Shown: piece by piece, positions 1-58,195 of the stretch
Layout of the letters: every line of letters starts with the position of its first letter
How positions within the stretch are numbered: the first letter of the stretch is position 1
Source of the DNA: Microbacterium sp.
GTDB lineage: Bacteria; Actinomycetota; Actinomycetes; Actinomycetales; Microbacteriaceae
Assembly (NCBI RefSeq): GCF_017305435.1
Contig: NZ_JAFKIP010000003.1
Location: 496,001 to 560,000, forward strand
Length of the DNA: 64,000 bases
Direction of reading: 5' to 3'
The notes under the pieces: generated by a model
What the model was told of the DNA's origin: nothing
Databases searched by the model: none
The model's input: the letters and a program-made list of their open reading frames with translations, nothing else
Program-made: the position numbers and the translations under genes

Positions 1-3000
1 CGGGATCGCGGTGTTCTCGAGGCCCACCTCGGCGACGGTCGCCGCGCCGATCGTGACGACGGCGGAGCCATCCTCACTCGCGACGACCTTCTCGCCGCTC
101 CAGGTCGGCACCGCCCACGTGAATCGCTCGTTGTCGTCGAGGCCCGCCTCCGTCAGCGTCACCTCCGTGCCGTGCGGGATCATCGTCGGGAACTCGGTGA
201 CGGTGCCGTCGGTCGGCACATCGAACGATTCGCTGTGTCGCTCATCGCCCTCCCACCACGTGGCGAGCACGGAGACCGTCGGCGGAACGTCGGCGTCGTT
301 CAGCGACACGCCCGTCACGGTCTTGGCGACCGAGAACGTCCCCGGCGCCCAGTTCGCCTCGTTCGTGACGGTGACGAGCGTCGTGGCGCTCTGCTGATCG
401 GAGACGACGACGGTCGCGGTGCGCTCACCCGTCGAGGTCACTCCGTCTCCGGAGATGACGACCGAACCCCAGACGACCGTCGGGAACGCCGGAGACGTTC
501 CTTCGGTGAGGGTGACGACGGTGCCAGCCGGCAGCTGCACGCCGAGCGGCGTCGGCTCGACCGCGTTGATCAGGAGGTTGCGCGACTGCAGCTGTTCGTC
601 GGCATCCCGCCAGGTCGCGGTCACCGGGAACTCGGTCGACGGATCGACCTCGTCCTTCGCGGCGCCGGCGATGCCCTTGATCAGGCTGATCCCGGCCGTG
701 GAGGTGGCCGCATGGTTCTCGAGCGTGACGGATGCCTCTGCGTTCCGCCCGATCGTCACGACAGCCGACGTCCCCTGGACCTCGACTCCCGTTCCGGACC
801 ACACCGGGGCGCCCCACGCGATGCTCGACCCATCCGAGAGCGGCGTCTCCGTCAGCGTCACCTTGGTGCCGATGAGCAGGTTCTGCCCGAACGGCACGGA
901 CGTGCCGTTCGTCGGGAGAGTGAGCGTCGACGTCTGCGCGGTGCCGCCCTCCTCGGTCCAGGATGCGGTGACGCTCACCGTCGCCGGGACGGCGGGGTTC
1001 TGCGCCTGGGCGCCCGTGACGGCCTTGGTCAGCGTGAAGGTGCCGCGCGTGCGCTCGACGCTGTTGGTCAGCGAGACCGTCGCAGGAGTCGTCGCGTTCT
1101 GCGCCGTGACGGTCACCGTCGCGGGGTCGAAGACGGGCGTTCCCCACGTCAGCTGGTCATCGTCCGTCGGACGCACTTCGCTGAACGTGACGACGGCCCC
1201 GATCGGGAGCTTGTCGAGGGTCACCGGCGTCCCCGCCGTCACGGTGAACGTGCGGTCCGGCTGCGCCGGGACGTTCGCTCCGAGTGAGGACGTGTTGATC
1301 TTCGCCGTGACGGAGTACGTCTTGGCCGCGTCGACGAGACCCGCGGCACCGCCGGTGACGCTCTTGGTGAGCGTCACCGAACCGAGCTGCGCGGTGTTGG
1401 TGAGCGAGACGTCGACGTTCGTGCGGGGCGATATCGTCGCGGTCGCCGTCGTTCCGTCTTCGCTCGGGACGACGCCGGGCGACGCGGTGAACACGGGGGT
1501 GCCGAACGTGACGCCGGGCACCGACGGGAACGTGGGCTCGCTGAGCACGAGCGTCCAGCCCGTACCGCGAGCGTTGAGCGACTTCACCGGAGTGCCGTCG
1601 AGCGGCACCGACAGGTCGTACTCGTTCTGCGTCGTGCCGGTGGGGTCGACCTCCTTGACGTGCACCGTGAACGCCGTCCCGGCGGGCACGAATGCGGCGC
1701 CGGCGGTGTCGGCGAGGGTCTTGCTCACCGCGACACCACCCTTGGCGACGCCCGTGCCGGTACCGCTGCCCTTGTTGTTCTGGGTGACGGTCTTGGTCTG
1801 CTCGATGCCGCCGCCGGTCACGGTGTTGCTGTAGGTCGTGCCCGCGGCATCCATCCCGCCGCTCGTCGTGCACGTCGTGTACGTGACGACGTACTGGTAT
1901 TCGCGGCTGAAGCCATCGCTCGTGCCGGTCGGGATCGGCAGGTTCTTCGCGGGGATCGTGAAGGTCAGAGTGCCGCCGTTCTCGGCGACCTGGGTGTCCG
2001 AGGTGAGATCCACCGTCGCCAGACCGCCGCCGCTGATCTGGTCACGCGCCTGGACGGTGAGGTTCATGCGCGCGGCGAGACCACCGCTGGGATCGCCCGC
2101 CTCGCACACGGTCTGCGAGGACGAGAGGACGTCGGTCAAGGTGAGCTCGTTCTGGATGTCCTCGATCTTCTGACCGGGGATCGTGATGGACCAGTTGAGA
2201 GTCGTCTGCGGCATGTGCTCGACGCCGTCGAGCGTGACGATCGACGAGTTGATGTTGCCGTTCTTGCCCTCGTTACGGCCGGGGACCGTCGCGGTGCCGG
2301 AGGTGGGCGTGCCGTTGACGGACGCCGAGTTCTCGTAGGCCGTGCCGCCGTTCGGAAGGTCCGCCTGGGTCACGCACGTCGTGTAGCTGATGATGTAGCG
2401 CCAGTCCGACGGCTTGAACACGAGCGTCGGGTCGTCGATCGTATAGGTCACATCGAAACCCGAGGTCGACTGACTGTTGACCGTCTTCGAGAGCTTGCCG
2501 GTGATGTCCTGGCGGAGGCCGGGGGCGTTGCCGGGGTTCGGGCCATACTGCTCGACGACGGTGATGCCGGAGATGGTCGATCCGTCCGTGCAGACCTGGT
2601 GTCCGCCGCCGAGCGTCTCGACGAGGTTGATCGTGTCGGTTCCGACGAGGGCGGACCCCGGGACGACGATCTGCCACGCGATCTTTCCGTCGCGGTTCGC
2701 GCCGCCCAGCACGCTGCCGGACTTTCCGATCCCCTGTGCCCACGGCTTGTTGGTGACCGTGCCGACACCCTCGCCGGCCGCACCCCAGCCCTGGATCTGC
2801 GCGGTGTTGTCGTACGTCGTGCCCGAGGGGTCGATCTGACCATCGGGAGTACACGTCTGGTACGTCACGCGGTAGGTGACGTTCGCGTCGAACGGACCCG
2901 CGAGATCGAAGGCGAACGACGTGTCACCGGGGGCGCCGTCGAGCGTCGCGATCGACGTCACGTCGACGACCGTCGAGCCGCGAACGGTCTGCACGGTGAA

Positions 3001-3726
3001 GCCGATCGGGTCGCACAGCACGTGACCGGCGCCCAGGGTATCGGTCACGTGCGCGACCTGGTTCCCCGCAGCGACGAGGTTCGCACCCGGGATGTCGAGA
3101 GTCCACGTCATCGACCAGTTGTTGGCGTTCATGACGCCCGACTTCGTGACCTCCCCCGGAAGGACGATCCCGCTGTCGATGCCGCCACCACCGGGCAGTT
3201 CGACGGGCACGAGCGCACCGTTGAGATCGAAGACGACGTCCTTCTCCTCGGTCGCCGCGACGGCCTCGATGTCGAACTCCCAGGTGCCGCTGATGTCGTC
3301 GCGTCCCACGACCTCGTTGCTGAGCGTGCAGGTTGCGATGCTCGTGGCCGGGTCGGTGATGCACGTCCCGAACGAGATCGTGCCGCCCTCACCATCGCTG
3401 CCGACGAGCGGGAAGGTGATCGCCTCGGGGAAGTCGAACTCCGCGGGCAGGCCGATCGTGAAGGAGTCGCCCGGCTGCGGGTTCGCGTCGGTCGCGTCCC
3501 ACGTGCCGCTGAGCGTGGCGACGTCGCCGACGGTGAGCTGGCCCGGCGCCGGGCCGGTGAGGGTCGTGACCCCGACTTTGATCGCCGGGTTGGGGGCGGC
3601 GACCGCTGCCGGCGCGATCCCGCCGACGACGCCGGCGAGTCCCATCAAGACGGCGACGAGTCCCGCGACGAAGCGGTTTCCCCCGATCCGTGCGCGCCGT
3701 CGGTCGTCGTGTGCGTGCGTGCGCAT
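1..3726 (-). CDS. Secreted surface protein with tandem DUF5979 repeats (C-terminus beyond window)
   Basis: The frame is open for 1242 codons from an ATG at 3726 to base 1 with no stop, so the gene is truncated by the window edge. Residues 1-44 form a signal peptide: an Arg-rich start, a hydrophobic core and an AVA-A-type cleavage site. Residues 45 to about 650 are beta-rich repeats with paired Cys in TTCVT/TTCTT-like strands. From about residue 664 there are five tandem units of about 112-118 residues, starting near 664, 780, 892, 1009 and 1127. Each begins with a V-x-L-x-K-x-V-T-G-like motif and later has a V-x-L-T-E strand, which fits the DUF5979 family. A GGGGAGAA ribosome site precedes the ATG. 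A sortase E gene lies at 34124, so C-terminal sorting-signal anchoring is plausible, but that end is not visible. An adhesive or wall role is inferred. Confidence 0.85.
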   Translation of the reverse strand, partial: MRTHAHDDRRRARIGGNRFVAGLVAVLMGLAGVVGGIAPAAVAAPNPAIKVGVTTLTGPAPGQLTVGDVATLSGTWDATDANPQPGDSFTIGLPAEFDFPEAITFPLVGSDGEGGTISFGTCITDPATSIATCTLSNEVVGRDDISGTWEFDIEAVAATEEKDVVFDLNGALVPVELPGGGGIDSGIVLPGEVTKSGVMNANNWSMTWTLDIPGANLVAAGNQVAHVTDTLGAGHVLCDPIGFTVQTVRGSTVVDVTSIATLDGAPGDTSFAFDLAGPFDANVTYRVTYQTCTPDGQIDPSGTTYDNTAQIQGWGAAGEGVGTVTNKPWAQGIGKSGSVLGGANRDGKIAWQIVVPGSALVGTDTINLVETLGGGHQVCTDGSTISGITVVEQYGPNPGNAPGLRQDITGKLSKTVNSQSTSGFDVTYTIDDPTLVFKPSDWRYIISYTTCVTQADLPNGGTAYENSASVNGTPTSGTATVPGRNEGKNGNINSSIVTLDGVEHMPQTTLNWSITIPGQKIEDIQNELTLTDVLSSSQTVCEAGDPSGGLAARMNLTVQARDQISGGGLATVDLTSDTQVAENGGTLTFTIPAKNLPIPTGTSDGFSREYQYVVTYTTCTTSGGMDAAGTTYSNTVTGGGIEQTKTVTQNNKGSGTGTGVAKGGVAVSKTLADTAGAAFVPAGTAFTVHVKEVDPTGTTQNEYDLSVPLDGTPVKSLNARGTGWTLVLSEPTFPSVPGVTFGTPVFTASPGVVPSEDGTTATATISPRTNVDVSLTNTAQLGSVTLTKSVTGGAAGLVDAAKTYSVTAKINTSSLGANVPAQPDRTFTVTAGTPVTLDKLPIGAVVTFSEVRPTDDDQLTWGTPVFDPATVTVTAQNATTPATVSLTNSVERTRGTFTLTKAVTGAQAQNPAVPATVSVTASWTEEGGTAQTSTLTLPTNGTSVPFGQNLLIGTKVTLTETPLSDGSSIAWGAPVWSGTGVEVQGTSAVVTIGRNAEASVTLENHAATSTAGISLIKGIAGAAKDEVDPSTEFPVTATWRDADEQLQSRNLLINAVEPTPLGVQLPAGTVVTLTEGTSPAFPTVVWGSVVISGDGVTSTGERTATVVVSDQQSATTLVTVTNEANWAPGTFSVAKTVTGVSLNDADVPPTVSVLATWWEGDERHSESFDVPTDGTVTEFPTMIPHGTEVTLTEAGLDDNERFTWAVPTWSGEKVVASEDGSAVVTIGAATVAEVGLENTAIP

Positions 3727-37416: not shown

Positions 37417-37533
37417 GATCTCGATACACCGGCACTGACGTGCCGGCACTCGATCACCGAACCGCAACATCCGCCGCAGGCGCCGTTCCCCTTCGGTGGT
37501 TGAGTAGCCGCCGCAGGCGGCGTATCGAAACCA
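37417..37533. repeat. Paired inverted palindromic repeat (left and right halves, long spacer)
   Basis: The left half (37417-37460: GATCTCGATACACC, stem, CACTCGATCACCG) and the right half (37494-37533: CGGTGGTTGAGTAG, stem, GTATCGAAACCA) are inverted relatives of each other. Their stems are GCCGGCA-type and GCCGCC/GGCGGC-type. This is the same family as the parS-linked units at 54813-56102. It fills the gap between two plus-strand genes and could act as an RNA hairpin. Confidence 0.75.
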
Positions 37534-37542
37534 TGGTGACAA

Positions 37543-38022
37543 ATGCCCGATCCTCTCGACCGCGTGCGCTCCGCGGCGGCCGCCCGCGGCCTCGACATCG
37601 AGCTGCGTGAGCGGCCCGCGGCATCCAGCCTCGCCGAGGCCGCGGCATTGTTGGGGCTCGAGCCGGCGGACATCGTGAAGACGCTCGTGGTCAAGCGCTC
37701 CGACGACAGCTACCTGTTCGCCCTGATCCCCGGCGATCTGGCGATCTCGTGGCCGAAGCTCCGGGCTCTCGTGGGCGTCAACAAGCTCCGCCTACCCGAA
37801 CCCGAGCTCGCCCTGCAGGCGACCGGTTACGAACGCGGCACGATCGTTCCGATCGGCAGCACCCACGACTGGCCGGTGTATGCCGACGCCTCGATCGCGG
37901 GCCGTCGCATCGCGATGGGCGCCGGCGCGCACGGCTACAGCCTGTTCGTCGACGCCGACGAGCTCATCGCCGCCTACGACGCGACGGTCGCCGACATCTC
38001 GCAGCCCGCCGCTCCCCGGTGA
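37543..38022 (+). CDS. YbaK/EbsC-family aminoacyl-tRNA deacylase
   Basis: This 159-residue single-domain protein has the YbaK fold: SSLAEAAALLGLEPADIVKTLVVK, the Lys in that segment and a GGG-like IAMGAGAHG loop. The family hydrolyses misacylated tRNA such as Cys-tRNA(Pro), acting in trans as a proofreading enzyme. The ATG begins nine bases after an inverted repeat. The exact tRNA substrate is not known. Confidence 0.85.
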   Translation: MPDPLDRVRSAAAARGLDIELRERPAASSLAEAAALLGLEPADIVKTLVVKRSDDSYLFALIPGDLAISWPKLRALVGVNKLRLPEPELALQATGYERGTIVPIGSTHDWPVYADASIAGRRIAMGAGAHGYSLFVDADELIAAYDATVADISQPAAPR

Positions 38023-38050: not shown

Positions 38051-38093
38051 CGGTGATCGAGTGCCGGCGCGGAGCGCCGGTGTATCGAGATCA
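38051..38093. repeat. Single palindromic repeat, left-half type, inverted
   Basis: CGGTGATCGAGTGCCGGCGC and its continuation to 38093 are the reverse complement of the left half seen at 37417. The stem is GCCGGCGC/GCGCCGG with a short loop. It lies between convergent ybaK and Nudix genes and may serve as a terminator hairpin. Confidence 0.7.
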
Positions 38094-53609: not shown

Positions 53610-54134
53610 ATGAGTAACACGACTGACCAGGCCGGAACGGACTCCGTTCCCGTTGCTGAGGGTGCGTCGACGAGCGTCGAGCAGCTCGAGCAGGAGGGCG
53701 ATATCGCGGCCGACTACCTCGAGGGCCTTCTCGACATCGCTGACATCGACGGCGACCTCACCCTCGATGTGCGAGCGGGCCGCGCGTATGTGTCGGTCGA
53801 GAACGACGATGAGGACGCGCTCACGCTGATCTCATCGCCGGACACCGTCCAGGCGTTGCAGGAGCTCACGCGCATCGCGGTGCAGACGCAGACCGGGCGG
53901 TTCTCGCGGTTGATCCTGGATGTCGGTGGTTCGCGCGACGCGCGTCAGCGTCAGCTCGAGAAGCTGGTGGATCGTGCCATCGCCCGTCTCGACGAGGGGG
54001 CGTCGCAGGCATCCCTGCCGGCGATGTCGAGCTACGAGCGCAAGCTGGTCCACGACGTCGTCGCCGCGCGCGGGCTCGTGTCCGAGTCCTACGGCGAGGG
54101 CGCCGATCGGCACACGGTGATTCGCCGCGGCTGA
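53610..54134 (+). CDS. jag: Jag-like KH/R3H RNA-binding protein
   Basis: This is a 174-residue protein. An acidic N-terminus (about 40 residues) precedes a KH-like fold (YLEGLLDIADIDGDLTLDVRAG to LQELTRIAVQTQTG) and a C-terminal R3H domain with YERKLVHDVVAARG. The N-terminal 'Jag' domain of Firmicute members is missing, as is normal in actinobacteria. The role, probably with YidC or in RNA binding, is not settled. Confidence 0.9.
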   Translation: MSNTTDQAGTDSVPVAEGASTSVEQLEQEGDIAADYLEGLLDIADIDGDLTLDVRAGRAYVSVENDDEDALTLISSPDTVQALQELTRIAVQTQTGRFSRLILDVGGSRDARQRQLEKLVDRAIARLDEGASQASLPAMSSYERKLVHDVVAARGLVSESYGEGADRHTVIRRG

Positions 54135-54142
54135 TGCCGGGC

Positions 54143-54156
54143 GTTTCACGTGAAAC
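54143..54156. other. parS site 1
   Basis: GTTTCACGTGAAAC, the perfect 14-bp ParB binding site, lies seven bases before the rsmG start. It is the only one of the seven not linked to a palindromic repeat. Confidence 0.9.
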
Positions 54157-54162
54157 ATCGCG

Positions 54163-54786
54163 ATGATCGAGACGGAGCCGGCAGAGGCATCCCTGGTCTT
54201 CGGTGAGCAGATCGATCGCGCACGCCTGTTCGCGGCGGCCCTCGGCGAGCATGGCGAGGAGCGCGGGCTCATCGGTCCCCTGGAGCCACCCCGTCTGTGG
54301 ACGCGGCACATCCTCAACTCGGCTATCGCCGCGCCGCTGTTCCCCTCCGGCGGTGTCGTGGGTGACATCGGATCCGGAGCGGGATTGCCGGGTCTCGTGC
54401 TCGCGATCGCGCGGCCCGATGTGCAGTGGGTCCTGGTCGAGCCGATGGAGCGCCGTGTCGCGTGGCTTTCCGAGCAGAAGGAGTCGCTGGGTCTCGACAA
54501 TGTCGAGGTGCTCCGTGCGCGCGGCGAGGACTGGACACGCGGCCCCATTCTGGATGCCGTGACCGCTCGTGCCGTCAGCGCGTTGCGTACGCTCATTCCG
54601 CTGACCGCGCCGCTCCTGCGCCCGGGTGGTGAGTTGATTCTGCTCAAGGGCGCCAACGCGCAGAACGAGATCGACGCCGCCGACAAGGCGATCCGCAAGT
54701 ACAAGCTACGAGACGTTCGCGTCGAGGTCGTCGGTGAGGGTGTCATCTCCGAACCGACCCGTGTGATCCGGGCGACCGCCGGCTGA
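54163..54786 (+). CDS. rsmG: 16S rRNA (guanine-527-N7) methyltransferase RsmG
   Basis: This 207-residue SAM-dependent methyltransferase has the cofactor motif GDIGSGAGLPGLVLAIA, the acidic strand end VEPMERRVAWL and a late DAVTARAVSAL strand. It methylates G527 of 16S rRNA; loss gives low-level streptomycin resistance in many bacteria. A parS site lies between jag and this gene, so ParB binding could affect its expression. Confidence 0.94.
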   Translation: MIETEPAEASLVFGEQIDRARLFAAALGEHGEERGLIGPLEPPRLWTRHILNSAIAAPLFPSGGVVGDIGSGAGLPGLVLAIARPDVQWVLVEPMERRVAWLSEQKESLGLDNVEVLRARGEDWTRGPILDAVTARAVSALRTLIPLTAPLLRPGGELILLKGANAQNEIDAADKAIRKYKLRDVRVEVVGEGVISEPTRVIRATAG

Positions 54787-54812
54787 TCTCCTCCCCCTGT
54801 CTCTCCGGCGTT

Positions 54813-54908
54813 GTGATCTCTATACGCCGCGCTGCGCGCGGCACTCGATCACCGGAGGGGATCCGCCCGGTGGTTGAGTAGCCGCCGACGGCGGCGTATC
54901 GAAACCAC
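54813..54908. repeat. Paired inverted palindrome, unit 1 of the parS array
   Basis: The left half is GTGATCTCTATACGCC, stem, CACTCGATCACCGG; the right half is CGGTGGTTGAGTAG, stem, GTATCGAAACCAC. The left stem is GCCGCGC/GCGCGGC with a TGC loop and the right stem GCCGCC/GGCGGC. parS 2 follows 20 bases later. Confidence 0.8.
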
Positions 54909-54928
54909 TTCTTTTCATCGCGGGAAGT

Positions 54929-54942
54929 GTTTCACGTGAAAC
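54929..54942. other. parS site 2
   Basis: This is a perfect GTTTCACGTGAAAC, 20 bases after repeat unit 1 and followed by a CATCATCGGGAGGGG spacer that recurs after parS 6. Confidence 0.92.
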
Positions 54943-54962
54943 ATCATCGGGAGGGGTCAGCT

Positions 54963-55052
54963 GTGATCTCGATACCCCACGCTGCGCGCGGTACTCGATC
55001 ACCGTGGGTCGGTGGTTGAGTAGGGCGGCGAAGCCGCGCGTATCGTAACCAC
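54963..55052. repeat. Paired inverted palindrome, unit 2 of the parS array
   Basis: Both halves are present (GTGATCTCGATACCCCACG to GGTACTCGATCACCG and GGTGGTTGAGTAG to GTATCGTAACCAC) with a few substitutions, so it is the most diverged complete unit. Confidence 0.8.
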
Positions 55053-55072
55053 TGCCTCTCATAGCTGGGAGT

Positions 55073-55086
55073 GTTTCACGTGAAAC
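55073..55086. other. parS site 3
   Basis: This is a perfect GTTTCACGTGAAAC, 144 bases after parS 2 and 20 bases after repeat unit 2. Confidence 0.92.
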
Positions 55087-55105
55087 ATCACCTAGGTGGT
55101 CATCT

Positions 55106-55195
55106 GTGATCTCGATACGCCGCGCTGCGCGCGGCACTCGATCACCGAGGGTCGGTGGTTGAGTAGCGCGGCGAAGCCGCGCGTATCGAAACCAC
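55106..55195. repeat. Paired inverted palindrome, unit 3 (no parS follows)
   Basis: The left stem is GCCGCGC/GCGCGGC and the right stem GCGCGGC/GCCGCGC. Instead of a parS site, the DNA continues to the GIY-YIG gene at 55289, so the unit is interrupted at this point. Confidence 0.8.
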
Positions 55196-55288
55196 ATCCA
55201 CTCCTCCACATTCGACCAATCGTCGGATCTCTCCACAGATTGATCGGCGTCACCACGGGGCTCTGCCGCCCCCGCGCATCATCGTGGC

Positions 55289-55597
55289 TTGGCATATATG
55301 TACATCCTCGAGTGCGCAGACCACTCCTACTACGTGGGCAGTACGCGCAACCTCGAGCATCGGCTCTGGTTGCACGACATCGGTGAGGGCGCCGAGTACA
55401 CCAAGCGCCGACGACCGCTGGAGCTCGTCTACGTCGAGGAGTTCGCCCAGGTGGCGGATGCACTCGCGCGGGAGAAGCAGGTTCAGGGGTGGAGTCGCGC
55501 CAAGAGACAGGCGCTGATCTCGTATCACGGAGACCAACTGCCGGATCTTTCGCGCAAGCGATTCACCCATGACGATGAGTCGACGGGTGCGTTGTGA
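55289..55597 (+). CDS. GIY-YIG-domain protein inside the parS array
   Basis: This 102-residue single-domain protein begins MAYMYILECADHSYYVGSTRNLEHRL, which carries the GIY-YIG motif as MYIL and YYVGSTRNL with the conserved Arg. A YEE/VYVEEF strand and a Lys/Gln-rich end follow. It resembles the small UPF0213 (YhbQ-like) family, whose role in DNA processing is poorly known. The start is a TTG (55289); ATG 55298 is an alternative. Its TGA stop (55595-55597) lies inside the first bases of repeat unit 4. It may be an insertion into the array or simply an old gene around which repeats grew. Confidence 0.8.
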   Translation: MAYMYILECADHSYYVGSTRNLEHRLWLHDIGEGAEYTKRRRPLELVYVEEFAQVADALAREKQVQGWSRAKRQALISYHGDQLPDLSRKRFTHDDESTGAL

Positions 55598-55683
55598 TCT
55601 CGATACACCGCGCTGCGCGCGGCACTCGATCAACGAACTCCGGTGGTTGAGTAGCGCGGCGCAGCCGCGCGTATCGAAACCAC
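55594..55683. repeat. Paired inverted palindrome, unit 4 of the parS array
   Basis: Both halves are intact with GCCGCGC-type stems on each side. Its first bases (GTGATCTC) include the stop codon of the GIY-YIG gene. parS 4 follows after 20 bases. Confidence 0.8.
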
Positions 55684-55703
55684 AGCCTTTTGCCACGGCA
55701 AGT

Positions 55704-55717
55704 GTTTCACGTGAAAC
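55704..55717. other. parS site 4
   Basis: This is a perfect GTTTCACGTGAAAC, 20 bases after repeat unit 4. Confidence 0.92.
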
Positions 55718-55736
55718 ACCGACTGAAGGGTGCGCC

Positions 55737-55834
55737 GTGATCTCGATATACCGCGCTGCGCGCGGCACTCGATCACCGAGGGGCTCACGCCCGGTGGTTG
55801 AGTAGCGCGGCGCAGCCGCGCGTATCGAAACCAC
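55737..55834. repeat. Paired inverted palindrome, unit 5 of the parS array
   Basis: Both halves are intact; the spacer between them (AGGGGCTCACGCC) is close to that of unit 6, which suggests recent duplication. Confidence 0.8.
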
Positions 55835-55855
55835 AGCCTTCTGCCGCGGGCAATC

Positions 55856-55869
55856 GTTTCACGTGAAAC
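55856..55869. other. parS site 5
   Basis: This is a perfect GTTTCACGTGAAAC, 152 bases after parS 4. Confidence 0.92.
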
Positions 55870-55887
55870 ATGACGGGCGGGTGGGGT

Positions 55888-55984
55888 GTGATCTCGATAC
55901 ACCGCCCTGCGCACGGCACTCGATCACCGAGGGGGCTCGCGCCCGGTGGTTGAGTAGCCGCCGGAGGCGGCGTATCGAAACCAC
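55888..55984. repeat. Paired inverted palindrome, unit 6 of the parS array
   Basis: The left stem is mutated (GCCCTGCGCACGGC) while the right stem is GCCGCC/GGCGGC. The tail spacer CTGCCGCGGGCAA before parS matches unit 5. Confidence 0.8.
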
Positions 55985-56005
55985 AGCGTTCTGCCGCGGG
56001 CAAGC

Positions 56006-56019
56006 GTTTCACGTGAAAC
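56006..56019. other. parS site 6
   Basis: This is a perfect GTTTCACGTGAAAC, 150 bases after parS 5. Confidence 0.92.
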
Positions 56020-56039
56020 ATCGTCGGGAGGGGTGAGGT

Positions 56040-56102
56040 GTGATCTCGATATACCACGCTGCGCGCGGCACTCGATCACCGGAGTCCGGGGCGTGGTTGA
56101 GC
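56040..56102. repeat. Partial palindrome, unit 7 of the parS array
   Basis: The left half is complete (GTGATCTCGATATACCACG to CACTCGATCACCGG) but the right half is reduced to GTGGTTGAGCGGCG, so parS 7 comes early (104 bases after parS 6). Confidence 0.75.
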
Positions 56103-56109
56103 GGCGAGT

Positions 56110-56123
56110 GTTTCACGTGAAAC
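56110..56123. other. parS site 7
   Basis: This is a perfect GTTTCACGTGAAAC, 61 bases before the parA start. ParB spreading from here could repress parAB. Confidence 0.92.
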
Positions 56124-56183: not shown

Positions 56184-57119
56184 GTGGTGCAGGAATCGGA
56201 GAACGCGACCGCTCCCGCACCCTTCTCTATCGATGACAGCCCGATTGCGCGCGAACTCGCGGACCTCACGTCTCGACGCCGGGCACTGGATGCCGTGTCT
56301 CTCGATTTCGAGGGAAAGACGCGCATCCTCACGGTGTCGAACCAGAAGGGCGGGGTGGGCAAGACCACCACAACCGTCAACATCGCCGCGGCGCTGGCCA
56401 CACTCGGAGCACGCGTCCTCGTGATCGACCTCGATCCGCAGGGAAACGCATCGACGGCTCTCGGTGTCCCGCACACGGCCGACATCCCGAGCGTCTACGA
56501 CGTCCTGATCGACGAGTTCCCCCTCGCCGACATCATCCAGACGAGCCCGGAATCCCCGAACCTGCTGTGCGCGCCGAGCACGATCCACCTCGCCGGCGCG
56601 GAGATCGAGCTGGTATCCCAGGTCGCCCGCGAGCACCGGCTGCGCACGGCGCTGGAGGAGTACCTCGCGGCATCCACTGATCGTCTGGACTACGTCCTCA
56701 TCGACTGCCCGCCGTCGCTCGGACTGCTCACGATCAACGCATTCACGGCGGCCGACGAGCTCATGATCCCCATTCAGTGCGAGTACTACGCGCTGGAAGG
56801 CCTCAGCCAGCTCCTCGGGAGCATCCGGATGATTCAGAAGCATCTGAACCCCACGTTGCACCTCTCGACGATCCTTCTCACGATGTATGACGGACGGACG
56901 CGGCTGGCGCAGCAGGTCGCGGAGGAGGTGCGCGCGCACTTCCCGAGCGAGGTGCTGACGACCGTCATCCCGCGTACGGTGCGCGTGTCCGAGGCTCCGA
57001 GCTTCGGGCAGACGGTCATCGCGTACGACCCGCAGTCGGTCGGCGCCGTGTCGTACCGTGAAGCAGCGGTCGAGCTGGTGCAGCGACAGCGAGTCAAGGC
57101 GAACGAGGAAGGCAACTGA
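56184..57119 (+). CDS. parA: Chromosome partitioning ATPase ParA
   Basis: This 311-residue protein has a 45-residue N-terminal extension and then a deviant Walker A, KGGVGKTT (signature K55, catalytic K60), DLDPQGNAS and the Walker B VLIDCPPSLGLL. It binds DNA non-specifically in its ATP form and moves ParB-parS complexes. The GTG start has a TAGGAG site; a TACAGT -10 lies near 56149. It overlaps parB by one base (TGATG). Confidence 0.95.
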   Translation: MVQESENATAPAPFSIDDSPIARELADLTSRRRALDAVSLDFEGKTRILTVSNQKGGVGKTTTTVNIAAALATLGARVLVIDLDPQGNASTALGVPHTADIPSVYDVLIDEFPLADIIQTSPESPNLLCAPSTIHLAGAEIELVSQVAREHRLRTALEEYLAASTDRLDYVLIDCPPSLGLLTINAFTAADELMIPIQCEYYALEGLSQLLGSIRMIQKHLNPTLHLSTILLTMYDGRTRLAQQVAEEVRAHFPSEVLTTVIPRTVRVSEAPSFGQTVIAYDPQSVGAVSYREAAVELVQRQRVKANEEGN

Positions 57120-58195
57120 TGGCGAAGCGCACAGGATTGGGCCGGGGGATCGGTGCCCTCATCCCGACCACCGAGAGCACCGAGTCCCGCCCGGTCGACG
57201 TGTTCTTCCCTGGGGCATCGACCGCAGTGAAAGCGCCCGGAGCGTCGATACCGGCGAAAGATGCCGCGGATGCCGCCGGTGCCGTAAGCCCTTCCGGTAC
57301 CGGAGCGATCGCCGAGGACGCCCCGGTGACGGACGGCGCTCACGCAACGGCCGAGGTCGACGCCGATCTCGTCACGGTCCCGGGCGCGCAGCTCATCGAG
57401 ATCGACCCGAACGAGATCGTGCCGAACCCCCGGCAGCCGCGGACCAACTTCGACGCGGACGACCTCGCTGAGCTGGTGCATAGCGTGCGCGAGTTCGGCG
57501 TCCTGCAGCCCGTCGTCGTGCGTCGCAACGATGAAGGCGCGTACGAGTTGATCATGGGTGAACGCCGCACCCGTGCATCGCGCGAAGCCGGCCTCACCTC
57601 GATCCCCGCGATCGTCCGCGACACCGCGGACGACGATCTGCTGCGCGACGCCCTCCTCGAGAACCTGCACCGCTCGCAGCTCAATCCTCTCGAAGAGGCA
57701 TCCGCCTATCAGCAGCTCCTCGAGGACTTCGGCATCACGCAGGAGCAGCTCGCGACGCGCATCGGCCGCTCACGCCCCCAGATCAGCAACACCATCCGCC
57801 TGCTCAAGCTGCCCGTTCCGGTGCAGCAGCGCGTCGCGGCGGGGGTGCTGAGCGCGGGGCACGCGCGGGCGATCCTCTCGCTCGACAACGTCGAGGCGAT
57901 GCAGCGCCTCTCGGACAAGATTGTCAACGAGGATCTCTCCGTCCGCGCCGCGGAGGCGGCGGCGAAGGGGGTGGATGCCGCGGCGCACCGCACCCCGGCA
58001 CCCAAGGCCGGCGCGCGCCGCGCTCACCTCGACGATGTCGCAGAGCGGCTGGGTGACCGGCTCAACACAAAGGTCAAGATTTCGCTGTCCGCGAGAAAAG
58101 GCCAGGTCATCATTGATTTCGCGACCGTTCAGGATCTCAACCGGATCCTCGCGGAGATCGGCGAGACCGAGTACGGCGCCACTGCGGGAGCGTAG
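57119..58195 (+). CDS. parB: Chromosome partitioning protein ParB
   Basis: This 358-residue CTPase clamp has an acidic and Ala-rich N-terminus. The ParB/Srx domain starts at EIDPNEIVPNPRQPR, with the CTP-binding GERRTRASREAG box. The helix-turn-helix TQEQLATRIGRSRPQISNTIRLL reads parS, and a C-terminal dimer domain ends the protein. Its targets, seven perfect parS sites, lie just upstream. The TAG stop is also the first part of the next promoter's -10 box. Confidence 0.95.
   Translation: MAKRTGLGRGIGALIPTTESTESRPVDVFFPGASTAVKAPGASIPAKDAADAAGAVSPSGTGAIAEDAPVTDGAHATAEVDADLVTVPGAQLIEIDPNEIVPNPRQPRTNFDADDLAELVHSVREFGVLQPVVVRRNDEGAYELIMGERRTRASREAGLTSIPAIVRDTADDDLLRDALLENLHRSQLNPLEEASAYQQLLEDFGITQEQLATRIGRSRPQISNTIRLLKLPVPVQQRVAAGVLSAGHARAILSLDNVEAMQRLSDKIVNEDLSVRAAEAAAKGVDAAAHRTPAPKAGARRAHLDDVAERLGDRLNTKVKISLSARKGQVIIDFATVQDLNRILAEIGETEYGATAGA

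Follow-up and report, generated by a model that had tools for sequence, protein, structure and literature searches.

A candidate mobile element of palindromic repeats and a GIY-YIG nuclease in the parS region of Microbacterium

How did parS sites on a Microbacterium chromosome come to alternate with pairs of inverted palindromes, and what are these palindromes? The question is raised by a stretch of 64,000 nucleotides from Microbacterium sp. (RefSeq assembly GCF_017305435.1, contig NZ_JAFKIP010000003.1, positions 496,001 to 560,000 of the forward strand), which we refer to as the window in the following. An initial annotation, made from the sequence alone, had read the parS sites and palindromes between jag and parA as one composite device. 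We find instead that the palindromes belong to a dispersed family resembling repetitive extragenic palindromic (REP) elements and are not components of parS, and that the gene of a small GIY-YIG nuclease stands among them. We consider it probable that a mobile element made of REPs and this nuclease gene entered the parS region and that its REPs co-amplified parS.

Palindromes, parS sites and a nuclease gene in one array

From position 54813 on, palindromes of two types alternate with parS; they come in inverted pairs, with one type per strand. The GATC type (GTGATC-GAG...TCGA-GATCAC) has seven copies in the array, one of them degenerate, and the GGTT type (GTGGTT-GAG...TCGA-AACCAC; GTGGTTGAG...TCGAAACCAC) has six full copies and a truncated one, in agreement with the paired inverted palindromes of the initial annotation. 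Strict patterns of the two palindromes match five times each in the window, compared with no match in 100 shuffles. Across the genome, two REP patterns have 23 and 6 matches, of which 6 and 5 lie in the array, and a joint pattern has 34. The inner stems covary in the 16 same-length copies among these 34, all of them outside the array: 98.2% of the cells are paired and 6 of 11 pairs show double changes, a level that none of 500 shuffles attained. As single-stranded DNA, a REP pair taken from the array forms a single long hairpin (z -4.0). In being short hairpins, dispersed and arranged in inverted pairs, the palindromes of the window agree with the general description of REPs, a kind of repeat common in bacteria.

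They are most readily compared with the REP/BIME/REPIN systems and their REP-associated tyrosine transposase (RAYT, also TnpA-REP). Shared features are the short, dispersed, imperfect palindromes, their inverted pairs that flank a single, presumably cognate nuclease gene, and the ability of a pair to fold into one long hairpin. By contrast, the Microbacterium enzyme is a GIY-YIG nuclease and not an HUH/Y1 tyrosine transposase, and conservation falls on GAG...TCGA within the hairpin rather than on an unpaired terminal GTAG as in GTAG REPs; GTAG is present inside the GGTT-type element and absent from the GATC type. The window repeats also lack a terminal unpaired CGTC tag and a build with an 8-9 bp stem and a loop of 4-5 bases, and thus differ from CGTC REPs in stem, loop and tag. 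No published description of GAG/TCGA repeats was found, in a literature that is not searchable by repeat sequence.

The second component of the array, the 14-mer GTTTCACGTGAAAC, is the consensus of parS. It has seven exact copies, with no further one outside the jag-parA interval anywhere in the 3.5-Mb genome, while its reversed control pattern has no match in the genome. With consensus palindromes and ParA and ParB domains close by, the array is a canonical parS cluster by sequence, and it resembles other ParABS clusters in the position of its sites beside parAB; the alternation with REP pairs sets it apart. The seven perfect sites of the initial annotation are therefore all exact, and the distances it gave between neighbouring sites (144, 152, 150 and 104 bp) proved correct on re-measurement, but the stretch is not empty: rsmG/gidB and the GIY-YIG gene had been overlooked. 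Because rsmG/gidB fills 54163-54786, parS1 is placed in the jag-gidB gap.

Spacers at corresponding places of the units, whether before, between or after the palindromes, resemble each other to a degree that was reached neither in 2000 shuffles nor in 2000 sets of pieces drawn at random from the window. The entire unit, and not parS alone, was therefore duplicated, as had been proposed; spacers no more alike than unrelated DNA, which would have spoken against this, were not found.

The nuclease gene stands between two REP pairs, in the slot of a parS, and thereby splits the array. It has 102 codons from a TTG start, with an alternative ATG at 55298, and its TGA stop falls within the next REP. 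By sequence, the nearest solved structure is 1zg2. Y5, Y15, G17, R25, H29 and E62 are invariant among 11 aligned nucleases, and the Tyr, Arg and Glu of the GIY-YIG superfamily are present; the invariant set includes those residues that we take to be catalytic. The sole further GIY-YIG match in the genome lies inside a 729-aa frame, presumably UvrC. The gene does not look like that of a homing endonuclease, as it is free and intergenic and encodes one Pfam domain (introns were not searched for with models). It resembles the UPF0213 proteins (YazA, BH0048) in its single domain, its size of about 95 aa and its sequence match to 1zg2. By contrast, in the Bacillus and Radiobacillus loci examined the yazA-type gene overlaps its operon neighbours on both sides and has no GAG/TCGA repeat nearby.

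Linkage of small GIY-YIG genes and repeats

The association of nuclease and repeats extends far beyond this locus. We fetched 80 loci by nuclease similarity alone (the best 80 of 181 relatives), mostly from Actinobacteria (Microbacteriaceae, Nocardioidaceae, Micrococcaceae, Gordoniaceae and Propionibacteriaceae), with some from Chloroflexi and others. Many of their flanks share the build in other spellings, for instance CGTT-GAG..TCGA-AACG, GGTC-GAG..TCGA-GACC or CCCT-GAG..TCGA-AGGG, and we counted repeats of the formula [arm]GAG...TCGA[arm'], which encloses an inner hairpin, with the outer arm left free. Within 600 bp of the nuclease there are 340 such repeats in 92,594 bp (3.67/kb), against a shuffled expectation of 8.5 (about 0.09/kb), whereas more than 1.5 kb away they are about 14 times sparser (135 in 503,925 bp; 0.27/kb). 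A formula repeat lies near the nuclease in 74 of the 80 loci, and on both sides in 61. When all head/tail letter pairs were ranked by counts over 40 loci, GAG/TCGA came first, being present in 24 of them, and it reached 21 of the other 40, a ranking that is not fully blind because the formula had first been spotted by eye on all 80 loci.

For the 70 nuclease genes whose flanks are complete, formula repeats average 4.14, and 53 of these genes have them on both sides; the corresponding values for 154 other open reading frames (ORFs) of at least 150 codons from the same loci are 0.43 and 4. Without recourse to the formula, repeated 11-mers cover 0.30 of the near flanks versus 0.05 of distant non-ORF DNA, with near exceeding distant in 45 of the 49 loci that have enough distant DNA. 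The nearest REP is at most 20 bp from the nuclease stop in 35 of 77 loci, and the medians, where a REP was found, are 21 bp downstream of the stop and 90 bp upstream of the start. A scan for near-perfect hairpins in 30 same-genus GIY-YIG loci missed most REPs because these have an internal loop, and gene finding in same-genus loci did not recover the nuclease protein from L092, L095 and L097. One locus labelled as Planococcus sp. APC 4015 (L118) has parS and formula repeats by its nuclease, which groups with those of Microbacterium; the assembly is probably mislabelled or contaminated.

Nucleases and repeats also vary together. On a tree of 103 nucleases, 74 of them labelled with a REP arm type, this type changes 25 times, whereas 300 label shuffles average 38.7 changes and never fall below 33; the alignment is short and leaves 49 of the 99 inner branches open. 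In a subset of 45 labelled rows (Microbacteriaceae, genomes of the same family and rows of no stated family), there are 16 changes versus 24.2 after shuffling, with a minimum of 20.

Among 99 genomes of the genus, those with at least 10 REPs number 21 of the 30 that have a class-R nuclease and 7 of the 69 that lack it (Fisher test, 4e-9), a contrast tempered by REP counts that cover dialects A and B only and by the genomes not being independent. For the 91 genomes that are at least 90% complete, the values are 21 of 30 and 6 of 61 (8e-9). Class R is defined by a GIY-YIG cut-off of 52.5 bits, set after a first inspection of the scores; it counts G014 as present and eight genomes with a weaker standalone GIY-YIG as absent. 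In G014, the class-R frame (L092) has two internal TAG stops and the genome has 52 dialect-A REPs; the nuclease gene is decaying next to a repeat family that is either living or fossil.

A comparable association is seen in Proteobacteria. From a plasmid collection, we fetched 18 loci on large replicons (8 of 36 and 10 of 33 relatives), a choice that partly favoured organisms listed as CGTC-positive in a 2013 survey. Hairpins of the CGTC type amount to 2.28/kb less than 500 bp from the nuclease, 0.50/kb far from it and 0.15/kb in shuffles, which kept single-base make-up only. CGTC or GAG/TCGA hairpins stand on both sides of the nuclease in 11 of the 18 loci, with CGTC hairpins on both sides in Sphingobium, Novosphingobium, Neorhizobium, Rhizobium, Shinella, Sinorhizobium meliloti, Azospirillum and Neisseria, and one-sided occurrences, as called by script, in Aeromonas and Photobacterium. 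L185 has one doubtful hairpin, and L194 and L195 are one-sided by script. At L178 of Sphingomonas parapaucimobilis (2986-3306), the flanking repeat itself appears to code for the C-terminus of the annotated nuclease.

In Azospirillum, the unit can be seen as present and absent at the same site. A REP dimer, the nuclease gene and another REP dimer fill the 617-bp gap between sufB and sufC of Azospirillum lipoferum 4B (L191), whereas this gap measures 87-129 bp and holds no unit in A. oryzae, A. ramasamyi and Azospirillum sp. B510, which are 94.7-95.7% identical to A. lipoferum 4B in the flanks. Occupied and empty orthologous sites in close relatives are as expected of an autonomous mobile element, a result that concerns this Azospirillum site and not the Microbacterium copy itself. 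Another nuclease-REP unit, with different repeats, lies in the same gap of Shinella sp. PSBB067 (L199); sufB-sufC is possibly a shared target site of the two.

According to passages of the 2013 survey, RAYT is the partner enzyme of GTAG REPs, no dedicated transposase or associated enzyme is reported for CGTC REPs, and the carriers of the latter include A. lipoferum, S. meliloti, N. aromaticivorans and Neisseriae (PMC3733652). The hairpins next to the proteobacterial nucleases fit these CGTC REPs in tag, build and several carrier species, as compared with the text of the survey rather than its consensus figure (PMC3733652). The flanking of GIY-YIG genes is a feature that the Microbacterium repeats share with CGTC hairpins. 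The small GIY-YIG nucleases may be the missing cognate enzymes of a large share of bacterial REPs, namely the GAG/TCGA repeats of Actinobacteria and further phyla and the CGTC REPs of Proteobacteria with dRS3 of Neisseria among them, which they would mobilize as RAYTs are thought to do for GTAG REPs, and in Microbacterium they would have captured and multiplied centromere sites; we regard this broader proposal as evenly balanced. For both repeat classes, the candidate enzyme is a nuclease with one domain and about 95 residues, which can be tested directly. Among the matches listed in the open-access literature, which was searched without bioRxiv, no publication appears to link GIY-YIG with REPs, and a paper elsewhere is possible.

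Several observations weigh against the proposed partnership. Six of the 80 loci (L112, L130, L161, L167, L171 and L173) have no formula repeat near the nuclease, although all of them except L112 have other repeats there, and L100, L141, L146 and L170 are reversed in the formula-free test. Neither scan found CGTC or GAG/TCGA hairpins in L180, L182, L184 and L192 of the proteobacterial set, and the GAG/TCGA scan found no near repeat in the three Bacillota members (L200-L202: Bacillus, Radiobacillus and Acetoanaerobium). G003, G021, G029, G037, G064, G079 and G093 have at least 10 REPs without a class-R nuclease, while G031, G049, G067, G068 and G088 have the nuclease and fewer than five REPs. 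Given these exceptions in both directions, loss and undetected dialects must be assumed; the REPs in the seven nuclease-less genomes may be fossils. Furthermore, it is sequence comparison that suggests cutting of REPs by the nuclease, and unequal crossing-over at repeats would give a ladder of units without any nuclease. Apart from these points, the two Rhizobiaceae loci L182 and L192 have another repeat, TTCCTGTG..CACAGGAAT, beside the nuclease, which is outside the counts of both scans.

The last of these objections leads to an alternative in which the REPs are passive hairpins multiplied by unequal crossing-over, and the GIY-YIG protein is an Slx1-like host repair nuclease that is tolerated nearby or resolves cruciforms. 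The strong folding of a REP pair as single-stranded DNA would suit it, as would the description of Slx1 as a structure-specific endonuclease (PMC8287910) and as a GIY-YIG protein (PMC1564403). We nevertheless deem it unlikely, since it leaves unexplained the two-sided flanking at about 20 and 90 bp, the nuclease tree that follows the REP arm type, and the Azospirillum insertion.

Far less probable still is the movement of the REPs by RAYT or another transposase with the GIY-YIG gene as a hitch-hiker. RAYT is reported as the partner of GTAG REPs (PMC3733652, PMC2817692, PMC3116915), but the Y1 transposase/RAYT fold (PF01797), the one transposase family scanned, was not found in the genome under study and is absent from 98 of the 99 genus genomes, this one included. 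The sole genome with PF01797, G040, has no dialect-A or -B REP match. RAYT was therefore dropped as the cognate enzyme.

parS ladders in related genomes

The two genomes with the nearest nucleases, Microbacterium sp. SCN 70-27 (L098) and Microbacteriaceae bacterium PS02067 (L099), have the same parS-REP-REP ladder with the nuclease inside. L099 has nine parS sites and six complete parS-to-parS units of 128-189 bp; L098, ended by a contig border, has five sites and three complete units, and the array of the source genome consists of three complete units and a shortened one. A comparison of cassette number across genomes, as the initial annotation had advised, thus yields six complete units in L099 versus three here. 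L090 (G066), whose REPs are different and whose nuclease branches elsewhere on the tree, has a ladder of its own with three complete units (157-162 bp).

A mobile unit of REP pair, GIY-YIG nuclease gene and REP pair could have produced such ladders in the following way. The unit would have inserted between rsmG and parA, in the long non-coding region that carries parS. Its nuclease would read the outer arm and the GAG/TCGA internal loop of an extruded REP and nick it. Repair or strand transfer after nicking may then copy the REPs, so that REP movement and amplification would be driven by cutting. Cutting, repair or unequal pairing at neighbouring REP pairs would give rise to tandem units, and a parS between two REP pairs would be copied along, resulting in the parS-REP-REP ladder. 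parS would accordingly be a passenger rather than selected, and an effect of the REPs on ParB is conceivable. If this is true, selfish repeats can rebuild the partition locus of a chromosome, and natural variants in parS number and spacing are available.

The initial annotation had favoured a functional cassette, in which the palindromes shape or roadblock the spreading of ParB and copy number tunes its loading. Units duplicated whole, the larger number of units in L099, whose nuclease is closely related, the separate ladder of G066 with other REPs, and a nuclease at most 1.5 kb from parS in 12 of 30 same-genus loci would all be compatible with such a device. However, when we scanned 30 same-genus parS stretches (about 1.5 kb from the first listed parS), 17 had 3-8 parS sites and no formula repeat, the scan missing worn copies because it required perfect 4-base arms; examples are G028 with eight sites, G037 with seven, and G047 with seven of its eight within the stretch. 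Related parS sites without palindromes were what the annotation itself had named as evidence to the contrary. The REPs, moreover, are mostly elsewhere in the genome and tied to the nuclease, and clusters that contain the nuclease do not clearly have more parS sites (median 7 versus 6, p 0.09). We hold a device of this kind to be quite unlikely: whole-unit duplication and the recurrence of the same unit in the two genomes with the nearest nucleases stand, but the palindrome as a part of parS does not. A growth of parS number with REPs was considered as well; the correlation with the number of REPs in the genome is weak (rho 0.32, p 0.002).

Under the entry of a mobile element, its position calls for comment. 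A formula repeat is found in all six stretches with the nuclease in the cluster and in 7 of the 24 without, and the nuclease lies at most 1.5 kb from parS not only in the same-genus loci mentioned above but also in 12 of the 80 named loci, with four genomes common to both. By chance, far fewer nucleases would be expected to fall within a few kb of a 3-4 Mb genome. Such elements may simply be tolerated in the long non-coding DNA near parA, or they could be attracted by parS, itself a palindrome.

This location might alternatively reflect vertical inheritance of one ancient insertion rather than recurrent entry. Only four parsimony changes on the tree are needed for parS-located nucleases, and the approximately unbiased (AU) test is marginal in rejecting a single clade (p 0.048), which would leave room for it. 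Some parts of the group, on the other hand, are far apart on the tree and have different REP arms. We find a single insertion, and with it a single origin of all parS-located nucleases, doubtful.

Features of the window

The features on which the above is based are listed in Table 1. A search of the open-access literature for parS together with Microbacterium returned nothing relevant.

Table 1. Coordinates of the parS sites, REP copies and genes in the window
Feature	Position	Strand	Basis
jag/khpB-like gene, R3H domain, left border	53610..54134	+	Pfam PF01424, E 1.1e-15
parS1, jag-rsmG gap, no adjoining palindromes	54143..54156	.	exact 14-mer
rsmG/gidB	54163..54786	+	Pfam PF02527, E 8e-44
REP GATC type copy 1 (degenerate)	54813..54853	-	direct-repeat family D1
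REP GGTT type copy 1	54870..54908	+	GGTT pattern match
parS2	54929..54942	.	exact 14-mer
REP GATC type copy 2	54963..55003	-	GATC pattern match
REP GGTT type copy 2, one base changed, missed by the strict pattern	55012..55052	+	family D5
parS3	55073..55086	.	exact 14-mer
REP GATC type copy 3	55106..55146	-	GATC pattern match
REP GGTT type copy 3	55155..55195	+	GGTT pattern match
Single-domain GIY-YIG nuclease gene, UPF0213-like	55289..55597	+	PF01541, E 6.8e-17
REP GATC type copy 4	55594..55634	-	GATC pattern match
REP GGTT type copy 4	55643..55683	+	GGTT pattern match
parS4	55704..55717	.	exact 14-mer
REP GATC type copy 5	55737..55777	-	GATC pattern match
REP GGTT type copy 5	55794..55834	+	GGTT pattern match
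parS5	55856..55869	.	exact 14-mer
REP GATC type copy 6	55888..55928	-	GATC pattern match
REP GGTT type copy 6	55946..55984	+	GGTT pattern match
parS6	56006..56019	.	exact 14-mer
REP GATC type copy 7; after it, near 56093, the remnant of a truncated GGTT-type copy	56040..56080	-	GATC pattern match
parS7	56110..56123	.	exact 14-mer
parA	56184..57119	+	PF13614/PF01656
parB, N-terminal, HTH and C-terminal ParB domains	57119..58195	+	PF02195, PF17762, PF23552
Both REP types outside the array	37417..37532, one more at 38055-38092	.	pattern matches

The REPs outside the array bracket an unrelated small ORF (37543-38022) and form a second dense REP spot of the window, one without a nuclease gene.

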